A DNA stretch of 64,000 nucleotides from an uncultured Brachyspira sp. (lineage in GTDB: Bacteria; Spirochaetota; Brachyspiria; Brachyspirales; Brachyspiraceae). Positions 14,297 to 57,728 of this stretch are shown here, piece after piece. The stretch's first letter is position 1; each line of letters starts with the position of its first letter. The stretch covers positions 62,001 through 126,000 of the forward strand of contig NZ_CALXRM010000001.1 of the NCBI RefSeq assembly GCF_944390845.1, in the 5' to 3' direction. The position numbers were made by a program, and so were the translations under genes. Under the pieces are notes generated by a model. It did no database searches, was not told the DNA's origin, and was given only the letters and a program-made list of their open reading frames with translations.

Positions 14297-14327
14297 AATA
14301 TACTCCCACGATTTATTATTATATGTA

Positions 14328-19829: not shown

Positions 19830-22800
19830 TTATCCTCTTGATTGTTTGTCTTTCCAAGATTTGATAGTCTTTTCAACCTCATCTCTTGAATATGAAGTAT
19901 TCTTAACTATATCATCAGGTTTCCAACCTTGTTTGTACATTTTTATTATAAGCTCTTCTCTTTTACTGTCTACTTTTTCAGATTTATCTCTCTTGCTTCC
20001 TTTTCCTGGTTTATCTGGCATATACTTATCAGCATTATCAAGCAAAGTTTCTAAATATCTTACGAAATATTCAGCTCTTTCAAGATTTTTAATTATGTTC
20101 TTATCATAATCGTCATACTGATTTTTCATACGAACAAGATTTTCTCTCTGATCTTGTATAGCCTGTATTATATCATCTATTTCCTCTAATTTAGAAATAA
20201 ACAACTGAACTTTTTTATCGTTCTTTTCTATCTTAGCAAAATCTCTCTCTAAAGAGTAAATCTTATCCATAAAGTTCTTTCTGGTATCTTCAACATCAAC
20301 CATAGCAGCTTTTATACTATCAACTCTTTCAAGTATAACCTCTGTTTCAATTTCTGCCTTTCTTACCTGTTGTAATATATCATCAGCATATTCTTCCTTA
20401 TCTTTGATAAATGAAAGTTTATTTTCTATTTGTGATGCTATATCAATAACAAGCTGTATACCTTCTTCAGTATGCTCTATCATAGCATTATTTTCTGCTA
20501 TATGAACAAATCTTTCCTGTATTTCTCCAGACATATCCATAAGCATATTAACTTTTTCTTGAGTATCTTTCAAGCTGTCTTTTTCTTTCTTGATACTGCT
20601 AGCATAATCCAATATTTCATGATGCATTTTCTTCAAGTTTTCAAACTCAGACATAGTTTTATTCATCTCAGTTGTTGTAACTTTAGTATCTTTTACTAAT
20701 TCATTTAATTTAGATACATCACCTTTGATAGATTCTGCCATTTCTTTAGCATTATCGAACACTTTTACAGTATTCATATATTTTGCTATATCCTGGCCTA
20801 TGCCATCTATTTTTACTTTCATAGCATCATATTCTAATGAAATATCATTAGTTTTTGATTCAAGCATCTTATCTATAGAAGAAACAGCATCAGCCAATTT
20901 TACTTTCAAATCTTCTGTTTGACTATCAAAATCTTTAAGTATTACATTTGTTTTTTCTTCATAGCTCAAATTAATACTTTCAAGTCTAGCTTCTATTTCA
21001 GAAGAATATTTAGTAATATCTTCTTCTAAAGCAGATACAATATCCTTCATATTAGTAATTCTTTTATCATATTCATCTAAGTTATCAGCATGTGATTTTA
21101 TTATTTCTTCCTTAGCAGTTTGAATATGAGCTTTAGCATCGTTCATAAGAAGTGATAATGTCTGCTCTAAATTAGAATTAAGTCTGGCTATATATTTTTC
21201 ATATTTCTCATTAGCATTTTCTTCTATAGCATTAACATTTTCTTCTATAATATTATTAGCTTCAGCTATTCTAACATTAACAGCTTCAGATATGGAGTCT
21301 TGTAAAGCTGTCAAAGATTCAGAAAGACCTTCATAATGAGCTTTTAATGCATCAAACTCAGAATTCTTTTCTTCTAATAAGCTATCCATTTTATTAGAAA
21401 CTTCTTCTATTACAGAATCAAATTCTGAAATTTTAGCTTCTATAGTTATCTTAGCATCACTAGATAATTCCTCAAGTCTGATATTGAATTTCTCACCTTG
21501 AGATTCTATATCTTTAGAGTATACATTTATTTTTTCTTGTAACTCTAAAGCTTTTTCTTCTATAAGAGCTTTTAATTTATCCATAGAAGGGGCAAACTCA
21601 TTTTGTAAGTTATTCATCTGCTCTTCAACTTCTTTAAGTTTTTCTTTATTAGCTTCTGCTGAAGTAATAAATTCATCTTTTATACTTAAAGCCTGTTTCA
21701 AATCAGTAACAACATCTTCTACAGAAGAAGTTATATTGAGTTTAGTATCATCTAATTCAGCATGTAATGCTTCTATTCTTTCATTGTATTCTTTATAAGC
21801 CTCCTCAAACAATTTTGAGAATTCCTCTTGGTTCTTCTGATGTCTGTCAGTATAGAATTTTTCAGAAGACAAATACATTTCTTTTAACTTAGCAACTTCT
21901 TCATCATGCATAGTTTTTATTTCATCAACTGCTTTTTCACCTTCAGTACCTATAGACATCTTTAATTCACTCATAAATTCTTCTTGATATGTGTCTATCT
22001 TTTTCTTGAAGCTAGTAATATTATCTTCAAGCTGTTTGTTCATATTATTGAAGGCAGCTGTAATTTTATTATTAATATCGTTTTCTATGCCTTCTATAGC
22101 ACTCTTAACATCAGAGAATTTATCAAACTTCTTCATCTCATTTTCAATGAATGTTTGTACCGTATCAAGTATATGAGGACTAAGCTCATCTGTTTCTTTA
22201 AGTACAGCCTCATTAAATGAAGCAACTAAGCTATTGATAGCCTCTTTAGCTTTAGATACATTTTCAGAAGCAAGTTTATTTTCTAAGGATTTAATATATT
22301 CCTCAGCTTCTTTAATCTTAGTACTGAATGCAGCTTCTTTCTCAGATATCTTCAATGAAGCAACATCAGCAGCCTCAAGTACTGCACTTGTTAAGCTGTC
22401 AATCTTATTACGTATATTAATATCAGAATTCTTAACCATATCCATTAGAGCTTCTCTTTCTCTGCGTACAGTTTCAACTTCCTGAGATATATGTTTTTGA
22501 GACTGACTTAACATTCTAAGTTCATTTTCTTGCTCTTTAATATTAGCTTTTATAGTACCAACCAAAGAAGTAATATCACTTTGAGCTTCATCTATTCTAT
22601 TTATGATGCCTTTAACTTTATCATTTTCTAATGCATCTATCTGTTCTTTAGCTGTTTCAACTTTATCATTGATATCTGCAAGCATTTCAACTGCAGCATC
22701 TCTTAAGTTATCTACTTCAGAAACTATAGCATCTTTATAGAATTCTTTTATTCTTTCTGGAGAAGCATAAGCATCTTCAAAATGAACTATTCTAGCTTCT

Positions 22801-25800
22801 ATACGTTTTCTGAACTCTTCATTTGATTCCTCAAATACTTTTATAATATCATCTCTAAATGAGTCTGTTAGATATCTTAAATCTGTACCTATAGAATCAC
22901 TCTGTATACTTTCGAACATTTCAACTATTTGTTTTCTCTCATCTTCAATCATAGCAGCAACATCTTCTCTGTTCAATACATCGAATGATATTTTGTTCTT
23001 CAAAGCCTCTATGCTGTCAATTATATTGAGCTTTTCTTGATTGAACATACTCATAGTTTCATCTTGTTCTTTTATAAGTTCAACTATAGATTTTCTAAAG
23101 TTTATAAACTCATTAACAAGTCTATCTCTGTCACCTTCAATAGAAGTCAAAGCTTCACCAGAATAAATAGCTCCGCTTTCATATTTAATTCTAAGATTAT
23201 CTATCTCGGCCATTAATCTGTTTCTTTCTTCTTGTAAGGCTTCAGCTAAATCTTTAATATTAGCTATTCTGTCATTGAATTCATTTCTAAATTCACCCAT
23301 TTCTTTAGCTAAAGTATCTTTATATCTCTTAATACTTTCTGAGAAGTCCTGCTCTAATATTTGGAAATCATCTTTAATACGAGCATTATACTCTTGAGCC
23401 ATATTAGCTAAATCATTATTAGTTGGAACAGAACCTAATATCTCATCTCTTAAAGATACGAACTCATCTCTAAGTTCATCTTTTAATGTTTCTTTCTCAT
23501 CTACAAATATTTGACTGATACTATCTAAAGTAGGAACATCTTTGAGCATTTCTTCTTTCATCTCTAACAATTTAGCCTCAACTGCTTCTTGTTCCTTAGA
23601 TAATACTTCAGCAACTGCTTCAACAGTAGAGTAGTTGTCCTCTATATTTTTCTTAAATGATTCTAATGTATCATTTATTCTTACTCTTTCAGCTTCTATA
23701 ATTTTTTCTACATAAGAAGTATCTAATTTACCAGCCTCTATATTTTTAGCAACTTCTGCTTTTGTATTTTCAATATCAGCTGTTACATTTTCCTTATAAG
23801 TATTTATAAGTTTTTCAACTTCTTCTCTTGATATAGATTTATCATTTAAGCTGCTTATCTCTTTTCTTATCTCATCAAATGATGTTTCTAAATTAGCTCT
23901 TTCTACATCTAAAAGATTGTTCAAATTATCTAAATAATCTTTCTTAAGATTTTCAAATCTTTCTTCTGCAGATATATATTCAACTCTTACTGCTGATTTG
24001 AAATGATCTAATTCATTAATCAATTTTGCTTTTTCTTCTTCAAACATCTTAGCAAAATTTCTATTGTCTATTTGAGTATTTATTATCTCATTTCTAAACT
24101 CTTCAAGTTCATTTGCTCTGTCTTCTCTTTCAGATACAAATAAGTCAGCAAGTTCGTCCATATTAGGTACAGAGTCTATTATTTTATTTTTAAACTCTTC
24201 AAGCTCATCTAAAATGCTAACATCTTTTTGAGATATTTCACTAGCTATTCTATCATAAACTTCTTTTTTGAACTCATCTATAGCAGTAAGTAAATCTTTT
24301 TTATCCTTAGCTAATTCATTAGAAAGTTTTAATGTATTTGTATTAAGTTCATTATTTATTCTGCTTATATAAGATTCTAATGCCTTAATTTTTACATCAA
24401 CACCTTTATTAGAACTGCTAATATCTTCTTTAATAGACATTATATTATTTTCTAGGTAATCTATAGTTTGTTTACCTTCTGTTTTTAATGCATCCTGAAG
24501 ATTTATAACTTTAGATTTTACTTTATCTTCATATTCATTTAACATAGAATCTAATTTTTCTTTGTACTTAGCTACTTCAGCACTTAAAGAACCTTGATTA
24601 TATTCTAAGTCTTTTATTCTATCATCAAATGCATTTATATGTCCTTCAATATTAGATATACCTTCTTCCAATCTTGAATCTAAGCTATCTTGTAATTCTA
24701 ATTGTTTATTAGCTATATCTTCCTTCAATGCTTCTATCATAGACATAATTTCAGAATAATTTTCATTATCTAATAAGTTATCCTTAGCATTTTCTAAAGT
24801 ATCATTAATAGCATTAAGATTAGTATCCTTCCAAGAATTCAAATCTCTTTCCATTCCCTCTATCTTGTCTTTAAATTCAGTGAATGAACCATTAAATTGA
24901 TTTTCTAATTCTTGTTTCAATACTGCAAAACTAGATGCTATAGTATCACCGTATAATTCTACAACTCTATTTTCATTAGACCAAACGTCTTCAAAATAAT
25001 TTACACGTTTATCTAATCTATCTTTAAATTCTTTAGAATCTTTTTCTATACTTTCTACTAAATCATTCTTAATAGCTACAACACTATCATTGAAGTTATT
25101 GAATATGCTATCCAATTTTCCTTCTAATCTAGCAAGCTCATCTCTGCTTATATAAGATTTAGGTAAAGAATTCATAACATTATTTAAGTCTTTGTAAATC
25201 TCTTCTTTACTGTCTAATATCTTATCTTCTAGTTTACTGAAGCTTGATATTTGAGGAATTATACTTTCCTTAAATTGTTCTAAGCTATCGCTAAGCTGTT
25301 TGAAGTTTTCATAAATAGCAGCAATTTCCTCTTGAGTTACATTAGTTTCATTGCTTTCTTCTTCCTCTTCTTCATATTCATCAACTTCTTCAGAATCCTC
25401 AGTTTCATCAGCAACTTCTTCTTCCTCTTCTTCATAGTACTCTTCTGCATCTTCTGTTTCATATTCTTCTTCATCTTCAACAGCAGCTAAACTATTCTTC
25501 AATTCTTCCAATTCATTAGAAAGTCTTATAACTTCATCATTCAAACTTGTATCAACACCTTTAACTTTATCTTTTATTGTTGATAAGTCTTTTTCCAAAT
25601 CTTCTATTTTTGAGAAATCCTCTTTAAGTGTATTGAATGATTCTTCTAATCTGTTTCTTTCAGCAATCAAATCACTATAGTCATGATTATCTTTTATAGA
25701 TGTAACTTCTTTCTTGAATTCATCTATAGCATTTGATATCATATTTTTATATTCTATCAAAGTAGATTCTAAATTAGAAACATTATCATCGCTGCTATTC

Positions 25801-28800
25801 ATTCTAGCTGTTAATGTTTCCATTACATCATCTATAGCAGCCTGTATATGTGCTTTTTCAGAATCGAATATAGCAGGTATTCTCTCATCAGCAGCACTTA
25901 AGATATCATCTTTTAATGAAGCAAATGAAGCTCTTAAACCTTCAACTTCTTTTATCAATAGCTCTTTCTCATTTATATAGTACTGAAGCATATTGTTCTT
26001 ATCTAATACTGCATCTTTTATCTCATCAATAGATTTATCAAAATCTTTACTCAAGCTTGAATACTTGTTATCTATTTCTTCTTTTACATTATTTATTTCT
26101 TCAATAAGAGAAGTTTTTACGCTTTCTATATCTTCTAATATATCAGTTACAGAAGAAATTTTCTCACTGTATTCGCCAAACAATGACAATATATGTTCAT
26201 TATTAGATATAAAGTCATTAACTTGAGCTTTAAATCTATCGTCTATATTAGATTTGAAATAGTCAAATTCAGCTGATAATTTAGATATAGAATTATATAA
26301 TTCTTCTTTCTCTAAATCCATTCTATCAGAAACAAATCTAGCCTGAGTTTCTAATTGATTATTTACTTCAGTTACAGAATTTTCTATAGTTTCTAATTTA
26401 TCAGCAATATCCATCAAGCCGTTATAATCAATTTTATCTTTAAATTCATTATATAAGCCCATTAATTCATTTTTAATATTTTCAAATGAAGTTGTTTGCT
26501 TGTCTCTCAATTCTGATTCGTAAGAACTTATTCTATTAACAATTTCTTCTTCTTTATTGACAAGTAAATCATTAATTTGTACTTCTAAATTCTCAACAAC
26601 ATCTCTTAATTTAGCATCAGAATCTTCTAACATTTTAGATACTGCATTATTTATGCTTTGATTCAAGTTATTGAATGAATCATTAAGCATAATATCTAAA
26701 TTATACTTATTCTTTTCAAGTTCTTCTAATTTTTCCTGTATATCAGCATCTACTTTAGAAGAATACTCGTTCAAATAATCATCTATATAAGCTTTATTAG
26801 TATCAACTCTAGCTTTTTCTATTTCTATTTTTAAACTGTCTGAATATTCGTCTAATGCTTTTTTGTTTCCTTCATAAACAGATTCTAACATTTCTGAATA
26901 TTCTTCATAATTAGATATAATGTTTCTTCCAACATCTTCTAATTTAGACATTATAGATTCTGTTTCATCTAATCTATAAGACTCTATGTTCTTCAACTCT
27001 TCTTCATATTTACTAACTGCATCTGATATCATATTATTAAATCTATTAACATCAGAAGTTAATCTTTCTTCTAAGTTAGAAATTCTATCATTAACAGTAG
27101 ATAATTTTTCTTCCAAGCGAGTATTGATTTCGCTTTCTTTGCCAAGTATTTCTTCTTTAATAGAAGCTATCATTTTAGCAATAATTCCATTCTTCTTATC
27201 TTTAGAACTTTCTATAAAGCTGTCAATATTTTCTTTAGCCTCTTTTAATTGCTCTAAAAGAAGAGATAAATTACCATCTTTCCAAATAGAAAGATTGCTT
27301 TCTATTTCATTTACTTGACCTTGTATATTAGACATAATCTCTGACTTAAAGCTGTCAACTTCAGGTCTTATAGCACTTTCATAAAGTTTTAAAGTTTTAT
27401 TAGGATCTGACCAAGTATCTTCAAAATAAGAAATTCTCTTATCCATCAAATCTTTAAATTCTTTAGTACCTGATTCTAATTCATCATATAAAGAATATAA
27501 TTTTTCTCTGTCATCATCAAATAAATCTCTTGAAACTGTATTATCTTCAAGTGAATCTAATTTTTCTTCTAAGCTAAATTTGAAGTCTGCTAATTCATCA
27601 AACAATTTATCAACATCGCTTCTTAAATTAGAATCAACTCCATCTAAATTGCTCTTTAATGTATAAACTTCACTTTCTAAATCGTATAATCTTTCAAAGT
27701 CTTCTCTTAAAGAATTAAATGCATCCTCTAATCTAGCTTTTTCTGCTTCTAATATCTCTATAGAATCATTGTTTTTAAGTTCATCTAATTCATATCTAAA
27801 TGTTTCAATATTTTCTAATATAGTATCCTTTTCATCTGATATAGCATTTTTAAATTCTTCTATATCAGCACTAGAACTATCCATTTTTTCTAATATATCA
27901 TTTGTAAATGAATTAAATTCAGCTTCAATTTTTTCTTTCTCTCTTTCAAATATAGAGTTAATATCTTCTTTGTTAGCATTTAATACTTCTTCTTTGAATG
28001 CTGTGAAGTCTTCTCTTAATTTCTGCATCTGTTCATTATTCAACACTGCACTTTCTAAGCTTACTATCTTTTCATTAAAGAAGTTTCTTAAATTATCATA
28101 TCTTTCATTAACAGCAGCTATTCTTGTGTCTATCTTCTCATGTAAATCTCTGATTCTATCTTCAAATATATTGATATAGCTTTGATTTTTCTCTAAATCA
28201 TATACTTTTTTCTCTAAGATTTCATACTTATCTTCAACAGTAAGAAGTTTACTATCTATTTTTCCATAGAAATCTTTAACTCTGTCTTCTATTTTCTGAA
28301 TATAGTTTTCACCATAAACAACTTCATCAACTTTTTTCTCTATGTTTTCTATAGTTTGAGAAACTTTTTCATTTGATGATTCTTCAAACTTACTCATAGA
28401 TTCATTAAATTTAGCTTCTAAATCTTCAACAGATATTTTTACAATATTATCTAATTCTTCTTTAGCAGAATCTAATATGTTCATCTTATCTGAAACTTGA
28501 GATTCTAATTTCTCTATGCCTTCTATAGTTTGAGAAACTTTTTCATTTGATGATTCCTCAAACTTACTCATAGATTCATTAAATCTATTTTGTAAATCTT
28601 CAAAAGATGATTGTAATATTTTATCTAAATCTTCTTTAGTAGAATCTAATATATTCATCTTATCTAATATCAAAGAATCTAATCTTGAAGAATAATCTTT
28701 TAAGTATTCATCAATACGTTCTCTTTCATTAGCTAGATGCTTATCTTCAATTCCTTTTATAGCACTATCTATCTCATCTTTAATAGAATCTGAATAATCT

Positions 28801-31800
28801 TTCAATGAATTGAGTGAATTATCATAAACTTCATTTATAAGTTTAGAATAATTTTCATAAGTAGATCTTATTTCTTTACCTACATTATCAATATCATCTA
28901 ATATTTTATTATTTTCATCTAATCTGTAATGCTCCATATTTTTTATCTCATCATCATACTTAGATACAGCTTCATTTACCATATTGTAAAGATTTTCTAA
29001 ATTACCGCTTATATCATTATTCAATTTAGAATCCATAGCAGCTAATCTATTTTCTATATCTTGTACTCTGATCTCTAAAGTTTCATTGATATATTTTTCT
29101 TTCTCATCAATTGTTGATAATAAGTTATCTACTATTTTTTTGCCTTTTACTTCTGATTCATTTAAATAATTAGATATACTTTCTCTAGCTTCATCTAATT
29201 GCTGAACTAACTCATCAACATGACCTTCTTTCCAAGTAGAGATATCATTATCCAATGATTCTATTTTACTTTTCAAATAGTTGATAGAATTTTCAAATTT
29301 AATCTCATTGTCATTTCTGATATCATCTAATTGTTCTCTTATATCTGAAGCAAATATGTTTTTCAATTTTCTGCTGTCAGCCCAAGTATCTTCAAAGAAA
29401 CTTACACGTTTTTCAAGTCTGTATCTAAATTCTTTATTATCATCTTTTATTTGATTAAATAAATCATTTAATTTTTCTCTTTCCTGAGTTAATAATTCTT
29501 CTATAGCCTCATTATTATTAGAATTTGTCATTAATTCTTCTTTTATAGAAGCTAATTTATTATCTAATTCTTCTTTTTCAGTATATATTATACTTTCTAA
29601 CTCAGAAGATTTATTGATATTATCTTCTATTTGAGTTTTTACATCATCTATTCTTGAAGTCAATTTATTAACATGTGAAGTAAGATTTCCTAATTCAATA
29701 GAATATTCATCTAAATCTCTTACTATATCATCTTTCATTCTTCCTTCAAAATCAGACAATTTATCAGATAATGCTTTAACCTCATCTTTTAAGAATACAT
29801 CAACATCAGACATATTTTCTTTTAATTGGTATAAGTTACTTTCTAATCTTTCTAATTTAGAGAAATCAGATTTTATAGCATTAAATGAATCTTCTAAAGC
29901 TTTTTTCTCTAAAGCTAATTGCTCTATAGTATTATCTTTCTTAACGCTTTCTAATTCAAGCTCTAAATTATCCAATTTTTCTAATAAATCTAACTTATCA
30001 GAAGAAATAATATCTTTTAATCTATTAACTTCATCATCTGAAGCATCAACTCTTTCTACAACAGCTCTTGTAAATTCTTCAAATACATGCTCTATTTCAT
30101 TTTTCTTATCTTCAAATAAAGTAGGTACATTGTCATTGAATTTTAATGTAGATTCTCTGAAAGATTCAAAATCATTTTTAATACTTTCCAATCTTTCTAC
30201 CAAAGCATTCTTTTCATCATTATGTAATGAGATAAGCTCATCTCTGTCTATTATAGAATTCTTGATAATCTCAACTGCTTCATCAAAATCACTGCTTAAA
30301 GAGTCATATTTATTTCTTAAATCAACAGTTTCACTATTTAATTTTTCAGTTATAGCTTCAATATCTTTACTCAAAGTAGCCATATATTTATTGAATAATA
30401 CAGATTCAGTATCTCTCTCTAATTGTTCAATAACTTCTAAGACTTTATCATTAGTTTCATCACTAAATTTAGCTATAGCCTCATTAAAGCTATTTTCCAA
30501 ATTATCAAATGATTCTTTAACCATATTATCTAATTCTTCTTTAGCTTCATTGAGTACAGACATTTTTTCAGCTATCTGATTATCAATTTTCTCTGAATAC
30601 TCTCTCAAATATTCATCAATATAGTTTTTCTCATTAGATAAATGCTTAGATTCTGATTCTTCTCTTGATTTCTCTATTTCTTCTTTTATAGTATTAGAAT
30701 AATCTGTCAAAGAATTAACAGAATTGTTATAAGCTTCATTTATTAAGTTAGAATAATTTTCATAATTTGATTTGATATCCTCAATAAGTTTTTGAGAATC
30801 TTCCATTAACTTATTGTTTTCATCTAATCTATAATGCTCAATATTTTTAATATCTTCATCATATTTAGCTATGGCATTATTCAACATAGTATGTAAATTA
30901 TCTAAATTAGAACTTATATCTTCATTAATCTTAGAATCTGTTTCTGATAATCTATTTTCTATATCAGCAATCTTTTCATCTAATTTATTATAGATAGTAT
31001 TTTCTTTTTCTTCTATCTTAGATAAGATATCTGTTAATAATTTTTCAGCTTTAACATCTGAATTATCTATGTAATTAGAAATATTGTTTTTAGCTTCTTC
31101 TAATTGAGATAATAATTCATTAATTCTTCCATCTTTCCAAGTTAAGATATCACTATCCATAGAATCTATTTTTGATTTCAATTCATTTAGATATTCTTCT
31201 TTGAAAGTATTCAAATCTGAATTCATAGATTCCATTTTAGCATTCATACTGTTAATATGTTCTTCTTTCCAAACAGCGATATCGTCGTTCATAGAATCCA
31301 TTTTTTCTCTTAATTCATTGATAGAATTTTCAAATTTCAATTCAGTATCTGATTTAACATTTTCTATTTCATCTCTTATATCAGATGAGAATAAATTTCT
31401 TATTCTAGAACTGTCAGCCCAAGAATCTTCAAAATATTCTATGCGTTTTTCAAGTCTATCCCTAAACTCTAAATTATCATTACGAACTTTTTCAAATAGA
31501 ATGTCTAATTTTTTTACTTCTTCATTAAATAATGATTCTATACCATCATTTTGACCAGAAACAGAAAGTAAATTATCCTTTATAGCAGACAATCTATTTT
31601 CTAATTCTTCTCTGTCTTTTGATATAGTTTCTTCCAACTGTGAAGATTTATCTAAAGAATCCTGTATATTAGCTTTTATTGATTCTATATATTCATTTAA
31701 AGTATTTACATTAGAATTAAGAGCACTTAAATCATTAGAATAATCTTCTAAATCTCTTGAAACATCTTCTCTGATTTTTGAATCAAGTTCTTCTATTTTT

Positions 31801-34800
31801 GAAGATAATTCTTTAACCTCATCTTGTAAATTTACATCAACATCTGACATATTATCTTTTAATTGATATAAACTGCTTTCAAGCTCTTCTAATTTAGCAA
31901 AATCATCTTTAATAGCATTGAATGATTCTTCTAATGCATCTTTCTCCAAAGTTAATTGAGTAATGGCATCATCATCTCTCACAGAAGCAAGTTCATCTCT
32001 TAAGTTTTCAATTTGTTCTAGTATAAATGTCTTATCTTCATAAAGTAAATCTTTAATATAATTAATATCACTTTCTGAAGTATTTACTCTGTCTAATAAT
32101 GTAGAACTGAATTCCTCAAATGCATTTTCTATTTTTTGTTTTTCTTCTTCAAATATAGTAGGTATAGCTTCTTTAGTAGAGCTTAAAATTTCATCTTTGA
32201 AACTGTCAAATTCTTTTTTAAGTTCATCAACTTTTGAAACTAAAACTTCTTTTTCTGAAGCATGCATTTCTAATAATTCATTTCTATCAAGTATAGAATT
32301 TTTAAGAACATCTAATGATTCATCTAAATCTTTGCTTAATGCTTCATATTTTTCTATAATAGAAGTAATATCATCTGATACCTTAGTATTAAATGTATCT
32401 ATATCAAAATCAACTTTTGATACATTACTGTCTATTTTTTCATTAACTTTTGATATTTCATCTTCTATTTTCTTGTATATGATACCAAGCTGTTCTGTTA
32501 GATAAATGCTATATTCATTTTTATCGAATATAACTGTTTTAGCATCTTCTTCTAATCTAGCAATAACTTCTAAAATCTTACTGTTAGATTCTCTTTCAAA
32601 ATTAGATATAACATTCTGCATATTAGCTTCTAAATTACCAAATGCATCTTTTATCATTTTATCTAATTCTTCTTTGGTATTATTTAGAGTATTTATTTTT
32701 TCTGATATTTGACTATCAACCTTATTAGAATAGTCTTTCAAATAATCATCTATATAATTTTTCTCATTAGATACATGTTTAGCTTCTGATTCTTCTCTTG
32801 ATTTTTCTATTTCTTCTCTTACCAATTTAGAATAATCTGTCAAAGAATTTAAAGAGTTATTATATGTTTCATTTATTAAGTTAGAATAATTATCATAACT
32901 TGCTTTTAACTCATCAATAAGTTTTTTAGAGTCTTCTGCCAACTTATCTGATTCTGCGGTTCTATAATTTTCTATATTCTTAATATCCTCATCATATTTA
33001 GCTATAGCATTATTCAACATAGTATAAAGATTATCTAAGTTAGAACCTATATCATTATTAAGTTTAGAGTCTGTTTCTGATAATCTATTTTCTATATCTG
33101 CTATTTTTTCATCTAACTTAGTATAGATACTATTTTCTTTTTCTTCTATTTTAGATAATACTTCAGCTACAAGTTTATTCTTATTATCTTCTGTAGTATC
33201 TAAATAAGCAGCTATATCCTGTTTAGCATTTTCCAACTGACCTAATAGTTCATTGATATTGCTTTCTTTCCAAACAGATATATCTTCATTTATAGAGTCT
33301 ATTTTGTTATTCAAATCGTTAAGATAGTTTTCAAATTTAAGAGCAGTTTCTTTCTTAACTTCTTCTAACTCATTTCTCATTTCTGAAGCATATAAACTTC
33401 TTATTCTAGTACTGTCTGACCAAGTATCCTCAAAATATGTTATGCGTTTTTCAAGTCTATCTCTAAACTCTATACTACCATTTTTAAAGTTATTGAATAA
33501 TTCATCTAACTTTTTAACTTCATTAGCAAATAAGCCTTCAACTGTACCGCTATCACCTAATATATTAACTAGATTATCTTTCATTGAAGATATTTTATTT
33601 TCTAATTCTTCTTTATCTCTCAATATATTATTTTCTAACTCTGCAGCTCTTTCTATAGAAGCTCTGATATCATCTTTTATACTGTCTCTGTCATCATTTA
33701 TTGTATTTTCTAATTCTTCAAATTTATTAGATAAAGTAGCAACCTCATCTTTTAAATTGATATCAACATCTTCCATATTATCTTTTAATTCATATAAACG
33801 ATTCTCTAAATCTTCCAATTTAGCAAAATCATCTTTTATTGAATTAAATGATTCTTCTAAAGCTTGTTTTTCTAATGTTAATTGAGTTATAGCATCATCT
33901 TCTCTTAAATTATTTACTTCCTCTCTTAAACCATCAATTTGTTCTAATAATGTTAATTTATCTTCTGATAAAATGTCTTTAATATAATTGATATCGCTTT
34001 CTGAAGTATTTACTCTTTCTAATAAATTGCTTGTAAACTCTTCAAATGCATTCTCTATTTTTTGTTTTTCTTCTTCAAATAGAGTAGGTATATTTTCTTT
34101 ATTAGTATTTAATACCTCAGATTTAAAGTTATTGAATTCTTCTTTAAGCTCATCTATTCTGCTTACTAATAACTCTTTCTCTGAAGCCTGAAGTTCTAAT
34201 AACTCATCTCTATCAAGTATAGAGCTTTTTACCATGTCTAATGTTTCTTCAAAATCGATATTCAATGATTTATATTTATCTTGAAGTTCTGATACTTCTT
34301 TATCTAATCTTGAAACAACATTATATATTTCGCTATCTACTTTAGAACTAATAGAAGATAAATGATTTTCTAATTCTGATATATATTCATTATGATTGAA
34401 TAGTCTATCTGAAACTTCTTGTTCTAATTTAGAAACAACACTATTTATTTTGCTGTCTGCTTCTTCATTCAATTTTAATATAGCATCATTCAAATTAGTA
34501 TTTAATGTATTGAATGATTCTCTTATCATATCATCTAATTGATTTTTGCTGTCATTCAATATATTAATTTTTTCTGATATTTGGCTGTCTAATTTATCAG
34601 CATATTCTTTCAAATAATCATCTATATAGTTTTTCTCACCTTTAAGATGTTTATCTTCTGCTTCTTTTCTAGCATTCTCTATTTCAGCTTTTACTCTGTT
34701 TGTATATTCTGATAATGAAGATAATGAATCTTTATAAGTAGTATTGATTAATTTAGAGTAATAATCATATCCTGTTTTTATATCCTCTAATAACTTATTA

Positions 34801-37800
34801 CCTTCTTCTGTACGGTAATGTTCTATATTCTTAATATCTTCATCATATTTAGATACAGCAGAGTTTACCATACCTTGAACTTCTTCCAAGTTTCTAGCTA
34901 TGTCATCTGATACTTTATCATCTAAAACTGATAATCTGCTTTCTATATCTGCTATTTTTGTATCTATTCTATTATAGATGCTGTTTTCTTTCTCCTCAAT
35001 TTTTGCCAATACATCTGATACAAGCTCATCTTTTTTACCTTCAGTAGTATCTAAGTAATTAGCTATATCTTGTTTAGCATTTTCTAATTGCTGTAATAAT
35101 TCATTGATACGAGTATCTTTCCAGCTAGATATATCTTTGTCGATAAGATCTATTTTGTTATTTAACTCATTAAGATAATTTTCATATTTGAGTTCTGTTT
35201 CTTTTTGTACTTCTTCTAACTCATTTCTTATTTCAGAAGCATATAAACTTCTTATTCTAGTACTGTCTGACCAAGTGTCCTCAAAATATGTTATACGTTT
35301 TTCGAGTCTATCTCTAAACTCTAAATTATCGTTCTTGAAGTTATTGAATAATTCATCTAGCTTTTTAACTTCATTAGTAAATAAGCCTTCGATATTTTCA
35401 TTATCACCTAACATATTAATTAGATTATCTTTCATTGAAGCTATTTTTTGTTCCAATTCTTCTTTATCTTTTAATATGTTATTCTCTAACTCTGAAGATT
35501 TAACTAAAGAATCATTAATAAGATTTCTAACATAATCTATATTAGTATTGGCATTAGCAATATTATTGTTCAAATTATCTATATTAGAATATATATTGTT
35601 AATGTTATTATTTTGTTCATTTATAGTATTATCAAAATATTCTTTAGTTTCTTTTGCTTTATTTTCAAATTCATTGAACTTATCAGCTAAACTAGAAACT
35701 TTATCTTTTAATACTATATCAACATCTTCCATATTATCTTTTAATTCATATAAACGATTCTCTAAATCTTCCAATTTAGCAAAATCATTCTTGATTGAAT
35801 TAAATGATTCTTCTAAAGCCTGTTTTTCTGATGCTAACTGAGCAACTATATCATCTTCTCTTATAGAATTAACTTCAGCTCTTAAATTATCAATTTGCTC
35901 TAATAATGTTAATTTATCTTCTGATAAAACATCTTTAATATAATTGATGTCGCTTTCTGAAGTATTTACTCTGTCTATTAAATTATTAGTGAAGTCTTCA
36001 AATGCTGCTTCTATTCTTTGTTTTTCTTCTTCAAATAGAGTAGGTATATCCTCTTTATTAGCATTTAATACTTCTTCTTTGAAATTATCAAATTCATTTC
36101 TAAGTTCATCTATTCTGCTTGCTAATAACTCTTTCTCTGAAGATTGAAGTTCTAATAATTCATCTCTATCAAGTATAGAGCTTTTTACCATGTCTAATGT
36201 TTCTTCAAAATCTATACTTAAAGAATCACATTTTTCATGAAGTTCTGATACTTCTTTATCTAATTTTGAAGACATATTAAATATTTCATTATCTATCTTA
36301 GAATTAATAGAAGCTAAATGATTTTCTAATTCTGATATATAACCATTATAATTAAATAGTCTATCTGATACTTCCTGTTCTAATTTAGAAACAACACTAT
36401 TTATTTTGCTGTCTGCTTCTTCATTCAATTTTAATATAGCATCATTCAAATTAGTATTTAATGTATTGAATGATTCTCTTATCATATCATCTAATTGATT
36501 TTTGCTGTCATTCAATATATTAATTTTTTCTGATATTTGGCTGTCTAATTTATCAGCATATTCTTTCAAATAATCATCTATATAGTTTTTCTCACCTTTA
36601 AGATGTTTATCTTCTGCTTCTTTTCTAGCATTCTCTATTTCAGTTTTGATTCTATTTGTATAATCTGATAATGAAGATAATGAATCTTTATAAGTGTTAT
36701 TGATTAATTTAGAATAATATTCATATCCTGTTTTTATATCTTCTAACAACTTATTACCTTCTTCTGTACGGTAAGTTTCTATATTTCTAATATCTTCATC
36801 ATATTTATTTACAGCTTCATTTACCATAGCTTGAACTTCTTCCAAGTTTCTAGCTATATCGTCTGATACTTTATCATCTAAAACTGATAATCTATTTTCT
36901 ATATCTTCAATTTTTGTATCTATTCTGCTGTAAATAGATGCCTCTTTATCTTCTATTTTTGCCAATACATCTGATACAAGTTCATCTTTTCTGCCTTCAG
37001 TAGTATCTAAGTAATTAGCTATATCTTGTTTAGCATTTTCTAATTGCTGTAATAATTCATTGATACGAGTATCTTTCCAACTAGTAATATCTTTGTCAAT
37101 AAGATCTATTTTGTTATTTAACTCATTAAGATAATTTTCATATTTGAGTTCTGTTTCTCTTTGTACTTCTTCTAATTCATTTCTCATTTCTGAAGCATAC
37201 AAACTTCTTATCTTAGTGCTGTCAGACCAAGTATCCTCAAAATATGTTATACGTTTTTCAAGTCTATCTCTGAACTCTATGCTGTCATTCTTAAAGTTAT
37301 TGAATAATTCATCTAACTTTTTAACTTCACTAGCAAATAATCCTTCAATATTTTCATTATCGCCTAAGATATTAACTAGATTATCTCTCATTGAAGATAT
37401 TTTTCTATCTAGTTCTTCTCTGTCTTTTAGTATATTGCTTTCTAATTCAACAGATCTGTCTATTGAAGCTCTGATATCATTTCTTATATTATCTCTATCT
37501 TCTTTCATAGAAGTTTCTAATTCTTCAAATTTATCAGCTAAACCAGAAACTTTATCTTTAAGATTAACATCAGCATCTTCCATATTATCTTTTAATTCAT
37601 ATAAACGATTCTCTAAATCTTCCAATTTAGCAAAATCTTCTTTGATTGAATTAAGTGATTCTTCTAAAGCTTGTTTTTCTAATGTTAATTGAGTTATAGC
37701 ATCATCTTCTCTTAAGCTGCTTAATTCTTCTTTCAAGTTATCAATATTTTCTAATAAAGCAGCTTTATCTTCTGATAATGCATCTTTGATATAATTAATA

Positions 37801-40800
37801 TCATTTTCAGATATGCTTACTCTTTCCAATACATTATTAGCAAACTCTTCAAATGCATTTTCTATTCTTTGTTTTTCTTGTTCAAATAGAGTAGGTATAT
37901 CTGCTCTATTAGCATTTAATACTTCAGTTTTAAAATTGTTGAATTCTTCTTTAAGTTCATCTATTTTACCAACTAAAGATTCTCTTTCTGAAGCTTGTAA
38001 ATCTAATAATTCATCTCTATCAAGTATAGAGCTTTTTACCATATCTAAAGATTCTTCAAAATCTATATTCAATGATTTATATTGATTTTTGAGTTCTGAT
38101 ACATCTTTATCTAATCTTGAAACAACATTGTATATTTCACTATCAACTTTAGAATTGATAGAAGCTAAATGTGTTTCTAACTCTGACATATATTCATTAT
38201 AATTGAATAATTTATCAGATACTTCTTGTTCCAATTTAGACACAACATTATTAATTTTGCTGTCTGCTTCTTCATTAAACTTAGATATAGCTTCATTCAA
38301 ATTAGTATTTAATGTCTCAAATGATTGTTTGATCATATCATCTAATTGATTTTTACTGTCATTTAATACATTAATTTTCTCTGATATTTGATTATCTAAA
38401 TTATCAGCATATTCTTTCAAATAATCATCTATATAGTTTTTCTCACCTTTAAGATGTTTATCTTCTGCTTCTTTTCTAGCATTCTCTATTTCAGCTTTTA
38501 CTCTATTTGTATACTCTGATAATGAGAATAAAGAATCTTTATAAGTAGTATTGATTAATTTAGAATAATAATCATATCCTGCTTTAATATCTTCTAATAA
38601 TTTAGCACTTTCTTCATCACGGTAATGTTCTATATTTCTAATATCTTCATCATATTTAGATACAGCAGCACTTACCATACCTTGAACTTCTTCCAAGTTT
38701 CTAGCTATATCATCTGATACTTTATCATTTAAAGAAGACAATCTATTTTCTATATCTTCAATTTTTGAATCTATTCTAGTATAGATATCATTTTCTTTTT
38801 CTTCTATTTTAGAAAGTATATCTGAAAGCAATTCTTCTTTTTTATCATCAGTGAATTCCAAGTATTCATTAATGCTTTCTTTAGCATTTTCTAATTGCTC
38901 TAACAAGTCATTAATACGTCCGTCTTTCCAGCTAGATATATCTTTATCTATAGAATCTATTTTGCTGCCTAAATCATTAAGATAATTTTCAAATTTAAGT
39001 TCTGTTTCTTTCTGAACTTCTTCTAACTCATTTCTCATTTCAGAAATATACAAACTTCTTATCTTAGTATTATCAGACCAAGTATCTTCGAAATATGTTA
39101 TGCGTTTTTCTAATCTTTCTCTGAAGTCTATACTGTCATTTTTGAAGTTATTGAATAATTCATCTAATTTTTTAACTTCTTCAGCAAATAAACCTTCAAG
39201 AGTTCCATTTCCGCCTAATATATTGATGATATTATCTTTCATTGAAGATATTTTATTTTCTAATTCTTCTTTATCTTTTAATAAATTATCTTCTAATTCT
39301 GAAGATTTATCTAAAGATTCATTGATAGCATTTCTAACTAAATCAATATCTTCATTTAGATTATTCATATTAGATAATATAGCACTTATATTGTCCTCAT
39401 GATTATTGATGCTATTTTCAAATTCTTCAAATTTTTCTGACAAATTAGCAACTTTATCTTTCAAATTAACATCAACATTTTGCATATTATCTTTTAATTC
39501 ATATAAACGACTCTCTAAATCTCCTAATTTAGCAAAATCATTTTTGATTGAATTAAATGATTCTTCCAAAGTTTGTTTTTCTAAAGCTAATTGAGCAACT
39601 ATATCATCTTGTCTTATAGAATTAACTTCAGCTCTTAAATTATCAATTTTTTCTAATAATGTTAATTTATCCTCTGATAAGATATCTTTTATATAATTGA
39701 TATCGCTTTCTGAATTATTTACTCTATCTAATAAATGATTAGTAAAGTCTTCAAAAGCAGCTTCTATTCTCTGCTTTTCTTCTTCAAATAGAGCAGACAT
39801 ATCTTCTCCGCTTGCATTGAAGGCATCGTTTTTGAAGCTGTCAAATTCATTTTTAAGTTCATCTAATCTATTGATTAATAAATCTTTTTCTGAAGTTTGA
39901 AGTTCTAATAATTCATCTCTATCAAGTATAGAGCTTTTTACCATATCTAAAGATTCTTCAAAATCTATACTTAACTCTTTATATTTGTTTTTCATATCAG
40001 ATATTTCACTATCTAATCTTGAAGAAACATTATAAATTTCATTATCTATTTTAGCATTGATATCTCTTAAGCTGTCTTCCAATTCACCTATGTAATTTTG
40101 ATAATTAGATAATCTTTCAGATGCATCTCTTTCCAATCTTTCAATAGTATCGTTTATTCTGATATCAGCATCTTCATTGAATCTCATTATAGCTTCGTTT
40201 AAGTTATCATTCAAAGTATTAAATGATTCTCTTATCATGTCATCTAACTGATCTTTACTTTCATTTAATATATTGATTTTTTCATTAACTCTTTCATCTA
40301 ATCTTGATTCATATTCTTTTAAATAATTATCAATATAATTTTTCTCATTATTTAAATGTTTGTCTTCTGTTTCTTTTCTAGCTTTTTCTATTTCAGCTTT
40401 TATTCTATTAGTGTAGTCAGATAAAGAAGATAATGAATCTTTGTATGTATTATTTATCAATTTAGAATAATAATTATAACCAGATTGTATTTCTTCTAAT
40501 AATTTGCTATTTTCTTCAGCTCTATGATGTTCAATATTTTTTATCTCTTCATCATATTTATTTATAGCTTTATTAACTATAGATTGTACTTCTTCCAATC
40601 CTCTAGCCATATCATCTGATACTTTACTATCTACATTAGATAATCTATTTTCTATTTCTTCGATTTTTGAATCTATTTTAGTATAGATATCATTTTCTTT
40701 TTCTTCTATTTTAGAAAGTATATCTGAAAGCAATTCTTCTTTTTTACCTTCAGATGATTCTAAATAATCGTTGATACTGTTTTTAGCATCTTCTAACTGC

Positions 40801-43800
40801 TGAAGCAATTCATTAATACGTCCGTCTTTCCAGCTAGCTATATCTTTATCAAGAGAATCTATTTTTTCTTTAAACTCATTAATATATTCATCTCTCCAAG
40901 AAGAAGCGTCATTATTAATAGAATCTATTTTTGATTTTAATTCATCAATATAATTCTCTAATTTTATATCAGTTTCAGCTTTTATGCTTTCTAATTCTTC
41001 TCTTAAATCAGCTGCATATAAGCTTCTTAATCTGCTGCTGTCTGACCAAGTATCTTCAAAGTAATCTATACGTTTTTCAAGTCTATTTCTAAACTCAAAG
41101 TTATCTGTTTTGAAGCTATTAAATAATTCATCTAATTTTTTAGCTTCTTCAGCAAATAGATTTTCTATATTCTCATTTTTACCTAATACAGTAAATAAAT
41201 TTTCTTTTATTGATGAAAATTTATCTTCTAATTCTGAAGATTTAGTTAAAGAATCTTTTATATGATTTTTTATTATTTCTAAATTATCATATAAGTTGTC
41301 ATATCTATTATCATTGTCAGCAACAACTTTTCCTTCAAAGTCCTCAAATCTTTCATTTAATTCATATAAACCGCTTTCTAAATCGCCTAATTTTTCAAAA
41401 TCAGCTTTGATAGTATTAAATGAATCTTCTAAAGTTTGTTTATCTAAAGCTAATTGAGCTATAGTATTATCTTCTTTTATTGATTCTACATCTTTTTTGA
41501 TATCATCAATTTTTTCTAAAAGTGAAGATTTATTTTCTGCTACAACTTCTTTTACTTTATTAATATCAGTTTCAGAAATACTGATTCTATCTAATAAATT
41601 AGCACTAAATTCTTCAAATGCACTTTCTATTCTCTGTTTTTCTTCTTCAAATAGAGTAGGAATATCTTCTCTGTTAGCATTGATTAATTCTTCTTTGAAA
41701 GAATTGAAATCTGTTTTCAAAGTTTCCATTTCTTCAGCTAACATTTCTTTTTCAGAATTTTGCAATTCCATCAATTCATCTCTATCAAGAAGAGAACCTT
41801 TTATCATATCTATTGCTTCATCGAAATCATTACTTAAATCTTTATATTTAGATTTAACATCTGATATTTCAGCATCTAATTTTGAAGAAATTTTATAAAG
41901 CTCATTATCTACTTTTACGCTAATAGCTCTTAACTGCTCCTCTAAATCAGACATATATTTCTGTTCATTGAATAATCTAACAGCTGCCTCATTTTCCAAT
42001 CTTTCAACAACAGAATGTATCTGAGTATTAGCTTCTTCATTAAACTTATTCATTACATCTTGTAAATTAGCATTAAGAGTATCGAATGAGTCTTTTATCA
42101 TATTATCCAACTCGACTTTACTGTCAGTTAATATGTTTAATTTATCATTAACCTGAGACTCCAATTTTGCTGAATAATCCAACAAATAGTCATCTATATA
42201 ATTTTTCTCATTAGATAAATGTTTTGCTTCTGATTCTTCTCTTGTTCTTTCTATCTCTTTCTTTATAGTTTCAAGATGAGTTTCTAATTCTGTAACAGCA
42301 TCTTCATAGATTTTGTCTATCATTATAGAATATTCTTCATAGTCTTCACGTATGCTATTACCTAATTCTTCAATATCTGCTATTAAATCTTCTGTTTCAT
42401 TAGCTCTATGATGCTCTATTCTCTTTATTTCTTCATCATATTTAGCTACAGATTCATTGATTCTGTTATGGATTTCTTCTAAGCTGTTTCCTATAGCATT
42501 ATTTAATTTTTCATTTATAGTAGAAAGTTTATTTTCAGCATCTGCAATTCTTTCATCTATGCGTGAATAAACTTCATTTTCTTTAGTTTCTATACGGTTA
42601 AGCATATCAATAAGAAGCTGATTTTTCTTACCTTCTGAAGTATCGATAAAGCTTTCTATTCCTTTTCTAGCTTCTTCTAATTGAGCAAGTAAAACATTTA
42701 AATTACCATTCTTCCAATCGTATATATCTTGCTCTATTAACTTCATTTTTTCTTTTAATTCATTCAAATGATTATCATATTTGATATCAGCTTCTTTTCT
42801 TATATTTTCAACTTCTTCTCTTATATCAGCAGCATACATGCTTTTGATTTTAGTATTATCAGACCACATATCTTCAAAATAAGAGATACGTTTTTCAAGT
42901 CTGTCTTTGAAGTCTTCATTGTTTGAAGCTAAATTTTCAAATATAGAATTTAATCTTTCTTTTTCACCATTTATTAATGATTCAAAATAGTTTTTATCTA
43001 CTAGACTAGATATATTATTTTTTACAGATTCAAAATTTCTATTAAGATTTTCCATATCTCTATATAGACCATCTGAATCTTTTTCTATTCTATCTTCTAA
43101 ATTATCTTTAAAATCTTTTAATTTTTTAGTTAAATCACTAACATCATCTTTTAATCCGCTGTCGATTCCTTCCATTCTGTTTCTGAGTTCAACAAAATCT
43201 TTTTCTAAATTCATTATTTTGTCAAAATCATCTCTCAAAGCAGTTAATGAATTTTCTAATACAGCTTTTTCTTCTGATAAAACTTCAACTGTATTATCAT
43301 CTTTCATATCATCAACGTCTTTTCTTAAAAGCTCTATTTGATATATCAAATGACTTCTTTCTTCTGATAAAACATCTTTGATATAATGTATATCGCTTTC
43401 ATTGTCTGTAAGTCTCATAAGTAAATTCTTACTGAACTCATCAAACATATTTTCTACTCTTGCTTTTTCTTCATCAAATAATGCTGGTATTTCTAATTCA
43501 TTAGTTCTTGCAATTTGATCTTTGAATAATTCAAATTCTTCTTTTATATCATCTATTTGATTTTTAAGTAATTCTTTTTCACTATTTTGAAGATTAATTA
43601 ATTCTTCTCTGTCTATTATAGAAGATTTTATCTGTTCTATTCTGCTATTAAAGTCTTCATTACTATCTGATATATTAGAACTTAATTCATCTATTTTTTC
43701 AGATAAAGCTGATTTCACTTCTTCTATCATATTAGAAAGTTCATTAACTTTATCTAATCTATTATCATGATCATCTAATATAGCAAGAATGTTTTCATTA

Positions 43801-46800
43801 TTAGATATTAATTTATCTGCCTGATCTTGTAATCTTTCATCAACATTATCTTTTAAAGAAACAAATTCATTTCTCAAATCCTCTAATGTTAAGCCAAGAG
43901 TATCTCTAACTTCTGCTGCTGTATTAGATATAACTTTTTCAGCATATTTTTTGATTTTAGCAATAGAACGCAAAGCCTTTTTAGTATTAGCTTTTCTTAT
44001 TTTAGCTAATATTTTAGAGAATCCGTTATATAAAGTATTAAATGAATCATTTAAATTTTCATTCAAACGATTAACTTCTTCATCTATTTTTGAAGATGTT
44101 TTATTCAAATAATCATCTATATAGTTTGCCTCATTAGTAAGGTGTTTAGCTTCTGATTCTTCTCTAGCTTTTTCTATTTCATCTTTTAATGCATTAACAT
44201 GCTCGCTTAAAGAATTCTTTTCATTTTGATAAAGTTCTTCAAGCATATTAGTGTACTGTTCATAATCTTTTCTTATTCCAGCACCTATATTTTCAACATC
44301 TTTTATTATATTATCATGTTCTTCTAATCTATAAGTTTCTATTTCTTCTATTTCGCCTTTATATTTCTCTATAGCACCATCAATTAATGCTTTTAACTCT
44401 TCTAATTTTCCTAAAGCACTTTCTTCTACATTAGAGAATATACCTTCTGTTTTCTTAGCAATTTCATCTTTTTTATCTGCTATATAAGAATCAATTTCAT
44501 TTGCTTTAGAATCAACAATAGACTGCATATTATTAGCATTATCAATTATTTCGTTGATTCTTTCGCCCAAATTTTCTATACGCATTTTATATTCATCTGT
44601 CATTAAAGAAGCATGATGTTTTAATTCTTCATAATCTTCTTTTAAGTTATTAGAATACTTTTCAAGCATTGCATGATATTCAGCACTTATAGCATTCAAA
44701 TCAGATCTTCTTTCATCTAATACGCCGTCTATTTTTTTGTCCAAAGAATTATATTTATCCTCTATATCAGACATTAATTCTTTTTCTTTATCTTCTGCAT
44801 TTTCATAAACTTTATTTATAGTACGCTCAAATGCATCTCTGCCGTTTTCAACTCTATGCATGATATCTTCTATTTCATCTTTTATTTTATTCATGCTGTC
44901 TCTTTTTTCGTTTAGAAGTATATCAAATGAGTCTGTAGCCTGACGAAGCTCATCATGAAGCATATCAACAACTTCTTTTTTGTTTTCTTCATTGAATCTT
45001 ACATTTTCGTCTATTGCTTCATCTATTTTATTTTTAAACTCGCCTAAAGAATTTTCTATATCACTGATTAAAGCATCATGTCTTTTTTCACTTTCATCAA
45101 CTTGGTTCATAACAGAATCAATACTGTCTGTAATAGCTTTCATTTTAGTTTGTTCATAATCATCTAAAACGTTTTTCAAATGAGCTTTCAAACTTTCTAT
45201 ATAAGCATCACTGTAATCAGATATTTCTTTTTTAATGCCTTCCATTTTATCTTCAGCATCTTTTATACCAGTATCTAATTTTTCATTAGCTCTGCTTATT
45301 AAGCCATTAACTTCAACAGAAGATTTTTCTAATAATTCTATACGTTTTTCTATATTTTCTCTTATGTTAGCTTCAGTTTCTTTGCTTAAAGTATCTATAT
45401 CTGTTGTAGCTTTGTCGTACTGTTCTTTTAATCCAGATAATTTTTCATCTATAGCACTTAAATCAGATGAAGTATTTTTGATATATGTATTAATATTTTC
45501 TTCTAATTCATCTTTAACACTAGCAAGTAATGTTTCTATTTCATTTATTCTTTCATTAGCCTGAGCTTCTAAATCTTTATACAAATATTCTTTCTGCAAG
45601 CTCAAAGAATCAAGTATTTCTTCCTGTTTATTATTAAGTATAGATATTATCTCAGAAGTTTGATAATGAGTTTCATCTATTTTGTCTTTCAAAAGATTAG
45701 TTTCAGTTTCAACATCGTTTCTAAGCTCATTGATTTCAGCTATTAAAGAACTTCTAGCATTATCTATAGAGTATTCCATATCATCTTGAGCTCTAGTTAA
45801 TATATCATTTTTCAATTTATCTATATCATTAACTATATCTTCAAATCTGCTTTCAGCTTTAAGCATGGTTTCTTCGCTCATACCATCTATAGATATGATT
45901 AAATCATTAAGTTCTTTAGTTTTATTTCTATAAAGAGTTATTACGCCGTCATCTTCATTTTCAAGTACATTCTTGATATGATTAGAAAAATTCTCTACTT
46001 CAACTATAAATCTATTATTAATATCTTCTTTTAATGAAGAGAACTCTGTTTCTAACTGATGAGCTTTATCAGCATAATCTTTAGTTATATAATCAGCTTT
46101 ATCTTTTATATCATCTATAGACTTCTCTAAAGAATGGGCTTTTTGTTCTATAGAATCTAAGAATTCCTCTCTATCCTGGCTTATTTTCTCAAGTCCTTCT
46201 TTTAGGGTAGAGTAGAGCATCTCTTTAGTTTTTTCCATTTCGTCTTTAAACTCTAATACGCTAGATTCTGTTATAGAGTTTAATCTATCATGTATAGTAT
46301 CTCTTAAACTGTTCAACTCAGTTTCTAAGCCTTCTTTAGACTGACTTAAAGTTTCATAGCGGTTTTCTATATCTTTAGATTTAACATCAATTTCATCGGC
46401 GAATGACGAATATTTACTAATAAGCTCATCTCTTCCTTTCTCAAATAATTCTGCCAATTGTTCTATATTGTGACGGGCTGTTCTTTCAGCAAGCTGAGTA
46501 AGCTGATTTGTAAATAATTCTTCTTTTTTAGCAACATGAAGCTTAAATTCTTCAGTAAGAGCAGATATTTTCTCTTTTTCTTGTTCTGCCATAGTGCTAT
46601 AATGAGCATCACGGGCGAGTAGGTTAGTGGTAAGAGCATCAAATCTCTTATAAAGCTCACTTTCAAACTCATTTAACTTAGAATTATAAGACTCTATTAA
46701 TTTATCCTGTATAGAACCAACATTCTTTTCTAATTCTGTCATTTTGGCTTTAACATCAGATATTCTTTTATAGGTCTTTTCTATAGTGTTACGCTCTTTT

Positions 46801-57697: not shown

Positions 57698-57728
57698 GCA
57701 TCAAGCATCAAGCATCAAGCATCAAGCA
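57698..57728. repeat. Heptanucleotide tandem repeat (GCATCAA)x4 plus GCA
   Basis: Four perfect copies at 57698-57725 and a partial fifth, in an otherwise A/T spacer between the operon terminator and the next lipoprotein gene, 170 bases before that gene's start. It is not in a coding frame that I can see. Apart from this, the 57609-57897 spacer shows nothing I can name. Confidence 0.9.

Follow-up and report, generated by a model that had tools for sequence, protein, structure and literature searches.

The closest described relatives of the gene analysed here, a giant open frame within 64,000 nucleotides of an uncultured Brachyspira sp. (NCBI RefSeq assembly GCF_944390845.1, contig NZ_CALXRM010000001.1, positions 62,001 to 126,000 of the forward strand; hereafter the window), are the SpiroCoCo proteins of spirochetes, which are recognised by the NCBIfam models NF047514 and NF047515 and include the LA_3659 family (NF047516). 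They share a membrane helix, a coil and a C-terminal module. Two further proteins come into the comparison through that module: SwrB of Bacillus, which activates flagellar type III export (PMC4526659), and FipA, which recruits FlhF to the cell pole and homologues of which are reported to be absent from spirochetes (PMC11620751). ZorA, a long-tailed membrane motor protein, resembles the giant protein only in how it would work, as a long helical rod anchored in the membrane; its matches represent coiled-coil similarity far below the cut-off. Matches to SpiroCoCo outside Brachyspira mostly lie in frames of about 1,000–2,500 residues, and the giant size of the Brachyspira members comes largely from internal units of about 650 residues. 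We find that the middle units of the window gene very probably owe their pattern to tandem expansion combined with gene conversion.

The giant gene is a single open frame of 9,124 codons on the minus strand (19830–47204) and encodes 9,124 amino acids; the actual start may sit 11 codons downstream, at Met12. The SpiroCoCo_N model (NF047514) matches residues 19–238 (46491–47150, minus strand) with 149.3 bits against a cut-off of 75, and the SpiroCoCo_C model (NF047515) matches the C-terminus (19863–20843, minus strand), a few residues short of the stop codon, with 204.9 bits against a cut-off of 125. Both scores are far above the cut-offs and place the protein in the family. The N-terminal match begins within the one hydrophobic stretch at the start of the protein, a predicted membrane helix at approximately residues 12–35, which is followed by a basic stretch. 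The predicted topology is an N-terminal membrane anchor with the body of the rod in the cytoplasm. The body is acidic (net charge −0.11 per residue) and contains almost no proline or cysteine; a low-complexity run rich in Glu and Asp, with tandem repeats, lies at 25356–25478 (minus strand). Hydrophobicity oscillates once every 3.655 residues, near the 11/3 of a hendecad. Gaps between orthologous units include 11, 22, 44 and 55 residues, and multiples of 11 make up eight of the 30 gaps of at least five residues (p = 0.004 against an expectation of 1/11). A model of one repeat unit is all helix, at low confidence (predicted local distance difference test score, pLDDT, 59). If the whole protein were one fully extended helix at 0.15 nm per residue, it would reach about 1.4 μm. 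We are confident of the overall architecture, a membrane-anchored, hendecad-periodic protein with a C-terminal module, which would extend as a rod. Matches to SMC, Rad50, ZorA and apolipoproteins were rejected as identities, being generic coiled-coil or amphipathic-helix similarity. The literature searched contained nothing relevant on the largest Brachyspira protein, and searches of Brachyspira genome papers found no account of the giant gene or of its size.

The motif YFED.W occurs ten times in the protein at spacings of 606–679 residues, with a last interval of 810, and these anchors, together with trees of the units, divide the gene into nine units, all on the minus strand. Unit u1 (606 residues, 41064–42881) has a positional orthologue in every long-form relative and is followed by u2 (656 residues, 39096–41063). 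The next three, u3 (617 residues, 37245–39095), u4 (652 residues, 35289–37244, with an insert relative to its two neighbours) and u5 (617 residues, 33438–35288), are co-orthologues of a single unit, slot 3, of the relatives. Slots 4 and 5 correspond to u6 (31437–33437) and u7 (29400–31436), slot 6 to u8 (27429–29399), and slot 7 to u9 (810 residues, 24999–27428), which contains the acidic low-complexity run. The unit tree shows the slot-6 unit to be missing from a clade with seven anchors that includes B. hampsonii. An antisense frame of 182 codons (37144–37692, plus strand) spans the boundary of u3 and u4 and is probably a by-product of composition.

The initial annotation, made by eye, had singled out the interval 33.4–39.1 kilobases (kb), which corresponds to u3–u5, as a series of nearly identical units produced by recent unequal recombination. 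The middle units are mutually closer than the outer ones, yet near-identity does not extend over the full units. Nucleotide identity is 88.5% for u4 and u5 (synonymous divergence, dS, 0.31), 85.4% for u3 and u5 (dS 0.51) and 82.2% for u3 and u4 (dS 0.55), and in bins of 60 base pairs (bp) the identity of u4 and u5 ranges from 62% to 100%. The outer units are as strongly diverged as had been claimed, most pairs sharing 32–54% of their amino acids at a dS of about 0.8–1.3 (0.8–1.0 for most), and the lower synonymous divergence of the middle units is in favour of the annotation.

Its long identical tracts, estimated at about 265 bases, were also confirmed. The longest exact internal repeat of the gene is 268 bp and joins 36376–36643 in u4 to 34420–34687 in u5 (both minus strand) at an offset of 1956 bp, or 652 codons; other exact pairs, of 104, 94, 86 and 73 bp, lie mostly within the same 33.4–39.1 kb. 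When the codon columns of u4 and u5 were shuffled 5000 times, the longest run averaged 55 bp and reached 124 bp at most, far below the 268 bp observed. Within the tract dS is 0; outside it, u4 and u5 have a dS of 0.37 and are 87% identical. We also tested the sites that vary among u3, u4 and u5 against 10,000 shuffles: the longest run favouring u4 with u5 was reached in none of them, that favouring u3 with u5 in nine and that favouring u3 with u4 in 20, and the three kinds of run sit at different places. Units u3–u5 thus contain discrete identical tracts beyond chance, set in diverged flanks, as is characteristic of gene conversion. The pattern fits repeated short conversion events laid over older tandem duplications. 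The sole very recent signal is this patchy transfer of sequence, which alters no length.

To place the expansion, we compared 15 complete or near-complete Brachyspira giant genes, the window's included, from one genome per species; the copies in G011 and G015 are each split over two frames. The window gene has ten YFED.W anchors. Eight are present in each of B. innocens (G008), B. murdochii (G010), Brachyspira sp. G79 (G015), B. suanatina (G025), B. intermedia (G009), G007 and G022, and shorter forms have seven (B. hampsonii, G006; G004; G005), four (G016 and G011), three (G012) or one (G001). Complete forms span 3,906–9,127 residues. The anchor number therefore differs between species, although each of three sets of related species keeps to one number. 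The two units that the window gene has in excess of its nearest relatives fall within the flagged interval. Across species, outer units group by position in the tree of units, whereas u3–u5 of the window form one clade (Shimodaira–Hasegawa-like approximate likelihood-ratio test, 99–100); every relative with this slot has only one u3 to set against them. The trees indicate an expansion from one to three units at slot 3 in the lineage of the window. The duplicates differ from each other by less (dS 0.31–0.55) than orthologues differ from those of B. innocens (dS 0.73–0.80). Slot 3 is unusual in that its dS to B. innocens, about 1.1–1.25 outside the tract, exceeds that of every other slot, which suggests turnover at this position. 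Several middle units of G002, G018 and G020, the B. alvinipulli group, likewise cluster by group and not by position, which suggests that this group had an expansion or homogenisation of its own. Long exact tracts are found elsewhere too, namely of 173, 164 and 137 bp in the single-contig genome G011, presumably of B. pilosicoli, 451 bp in G018 and 98 bp in G016, and an exact repeat comparison of eight relatives found none of at least 40 bp. The contig ends of G002 share 439 bases with one mismatch, and represent either one locus or a collapsed repeat. The giant gene of B. intermedia has a stop codon within the N-terminal match.

Middle units do recombine, as put forward in the initial annotation, and species have different unit numbers, but the recent part of the exchange is confined to conversion tracts and the duplications are older. 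The stronger proposal, that whole units were duplicated very recently by unequal crossing over and that their number varies between strains in the manner of a giant variable-number tandem repeat, we consider unlikely. It is true that copy number differs at the species level, and that the gene ends lie on different contigs in ten of the 24 Brachyspira genomes in which both ends were found, as would be expected if the middle repeats defeat assembly. The in-frame offset of 1956 bp with 268 bp of exact homology also means that a crossover within such a tract could possibly insert or remove 652 codons without shifting the frame; the tracts themselves do not show ongoing change in copy number. A recent copy of a whole unit would be identical throughout, however, and u4 and u5 differ at 13% of sites outside the tracts, for which reason we rejected it. 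We judge the whole-unit duplications too old to account for differences between strains, and the constancy of unit number within the three species groups also speaks against the proposal. It is highly improbable that the 268-bp identity is an artefact of assembly or reflects a constraint on the DNA itself. The source genome is a draft of 133 contigs, and many short reads would not span the repeat, but u3–u5 differ by 11–18% overall and so do not represent one collapsed copy, and independent tracts are present in other genomes, including the single-contig G011. Conservation at the DNA level was rejected because the tract diverges normally from the same tract of the relatives (dS 0.62–1.21), like the rest of the unit. 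We therefore retain expansion followed by conversion. Most likely, the extra in-frame copies would have arisen at an earlier stage through unequal homologous exchange between unit repeats, and later short conversion events would have copied patches between neighbours, leaving exact tracts in surroundings that are 62–95% identical. As each unit consists of whole codons and the rod has a hendecad period, a gain or loss of units would lengthen or shorten it without breaking it.

The SpiroCoCo_C region ends in a three-helix module that resembles a helix-turn-helix. The last 45 or so residues of the window protein are modelled as three helices with a pLDDT of 77–87, and the rest of the C-terminal model is of low confidence. 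DUF6115 (PF19610) matches the window protein with only 15.4 bits (E value, 0.025) against a gathering score of 27. It exceeds the Pfam cut-off at the C-termini of other SpiroCoCo members in many spirochetes (for instance G054, G043, G026 and G031), at the same places as the SpiroCoCo_C matches. DUF2802 (PF10975) matches the C-termini of relatives with E values down to 3.5e-7, but its scores of 28.6, 27.5 and 30.7 bits are below the gathering score of 33.5; no DUF2802 match is listed for the C-terminus of the window protein. A small protein of the relative G071, encoded in a cluster with flhA and flhF, exceeds the DUF6115 cut-off and aligns with the end of SpiroCoCo_C (E value, 3.7e-8). Taken together, these sequence matches relate the C-terminal module to DUF6115 and DUF2802. 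The genome of the window also encodes a small DUF6115 protein of 288 residues (G000:C33:2677-3540; 32.9 bits) with a membrane helix and a coil. It adjoins a similar-looking short partner and is likely the counterpart of the G071 protein, which in its flhA/flhF cluster is likewise found beside a similar short partner.

We take SwrB to belong to DUF6115. SwrB of Bacillus subtilis is a single-pass membrane protein, as is predicted for the window protein, and SpiroCoCo relatives exceed the DUF6115 cut-off with their C-terminal module. The window protein does not reach that cut-off and is by far the larger of the two, and activation of flagellar export in the manner of SwrB could be ascribed to it only by analogy. 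FipA has the same layout of a short N-terminal part, a membrane helix, a coil and a C-terminal module, and it is to this family that the best DUF2802 match of a relative's C-terminus points. SpiroCoCo proteins are below the DUF2802 gathering score, FipA homologues are reported absent from spirochetes (PMC11620751), and binding of FlhF would again be an analogy. Most likely, the giant protein is a coiled rod in the cytoplasm that is anchored by a single membrane pass and has an end resembling those of SwrB and FipA (DUF6115/DUF2802).

We then asked how the family is distributed. SpiroCoCo_C exceeds its cut-off in 204 of 296 Spirochaetota genomes and in none of 14 control genomes, a distribution typical of spirochetes. 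FlhA is missing from 18 of the 296: six of these are incomplete (66–88%), and the other 12, which are 95–99% complete, are all the sampled members of the family f49. In these 12 genomes SpiroCoCo_C gives nothing better than an E value of 1.7e-5, whereas nearly all near-complete FlhA-positive genomes have E values below 1e-17 (counts read by eye from two tables). SpiroCoCo is thus distributed together with flagella. One single-contig f49 genome (2,227,296 bases) is presumably that of Sphaerochaeta coccoides, a non-flagellated coccoid spirochete.

It had further been suggested that, if the protein is a ruler, unit number would set a cell dimension. A ruler fixing cell or flagellar length would be consistent with the great length of the protein and with length changes that stay in frame and keep the periodicity. 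Smaller, thinner Brachyspira species also tend to have shorter versions, a trend confounded by phylogeny. We nevertheless consider a ruler very unlikely. The rod is predicted to be cytoplasmic, whereas flagellar filaments are periplasmic. SpiroCoCo frames of only 2,165–2,523 residues occur in genomes that we take to be Borrelia. Cells of B. burgdorferi are about 20 μm long according to the literature, and long Borrelia cells would thus probably go with short proteins. B. suanatina (5.5 ± 1.0 μm) and B. intermedia (7.5–10 μm; PMC4603578) have unequal cells and the same eight anchors, as has B. murdochii, at 5–8 μm (PMC3035287). For B. hyodysenteriae, different studies give 9.8 ± 1.9, 8–10 or 6–8.5 μm (PMC4603578). 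These values speak against a ruler of cell length, and protein length seems to set cell length in no simple way. A structural coiled-coil scaffold of cell shape or of the cytoplasm, cytoskeletal and SMC-like in look only, with no specific flagellar link, is a fair possibility. The protein is a long, all-helical, acidic rod, its SMC, Rad50, ZorA and apolipoprotein matches are what coiled coils generally give, it has no flagellar neighbours in the neighbourhoods read, and the f49 clade probably lost its shape besides its flagella. The C-terminal module argues against such a scaffold, as it is common to the small protein of the G071 flhA–flhF cluster and to families of the SwrB/FipA type.

On balance, we think it rather probable that the locus is a slot-3 tandem expansion overwritten by conversion, in a membrane-anchored rod linked to the flagellar or polar apparatus. 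Such a rod would most likely tether or organise part of that apparatus, and we propose this flagellar or polar role of the giant protein tentatively. Several observations weigh against this reading as a whole. Flagellar genes are absent beside the giant gene, both in the window and in the neighbourhoods read, and no paper on the family was found in the literature searched for SpiroCoCo, BB0512 and LA3659. The co-distribution has exceptions among FlhA-positive genomes, with no SpiroCoCo_C match in G161 and a weak one in G108 (1.7e-6). The joint loss in f49 concerns a single clade, and helical shape was probably lost there too, which confounds shape with flagella; as one loss event, it speaks for a connection with motility or shape and not with flagella alone. 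The DUF6115 match of the window protein is below the gathering score, the all-helical unit model is of low confidence, and the unit count of the window gene rests on a draft assembly.

Four other features of the window may be mentioned. A frame of 1,938 residues (1904–7720, minus strand) resembles two UvrA-type excinuclease halves fused in tandem. A transporter-like protein is spread over two overlapping frames of 277 and 217 residues (13049–14309, minus strand), owing to a frameshift, a pseudogene or a sequencing error. The 715-residue frame at 52941–55088 (plus strand) is apparently an ATP-grasp enzyme joined to a TrpC-like C-terminal part. At 57698–57728, 4.4 perfect tandem copies of the 7-bp sequence GCATCAA lie upstream of a lipoprotein-like gene and form a candidate variable-number site.

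SpiroCoCo is a spirochete-wide family that carries a curated name and has no paper in the literature searched; its co-distribution with flagella and the link of its module to SwrB and FipA provide a first testable guess at its function. A bolder version, which we regard as doubtful, is that SpiroCoCo proteins are giant spirochete counterparts of SwrB and FipA: membrane-anchored rods with a DUF6115-like tip that would bridge the distance between their anchoring site and the machinery of flagellar export or of FlhF, their reach in Brachyspira being tuned by units of about 650 residues and by 11-residue steps while conversion patches the middle units. With sizes between about 3,900 and 9,127 residues that differ by whole units and by hendecads, the Brachyspira genes form a natural length series for studying the function of giant bacterial rods. 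They also illustrate how a giant gene may grow, its outer parts remaining stable while the middle recombines.

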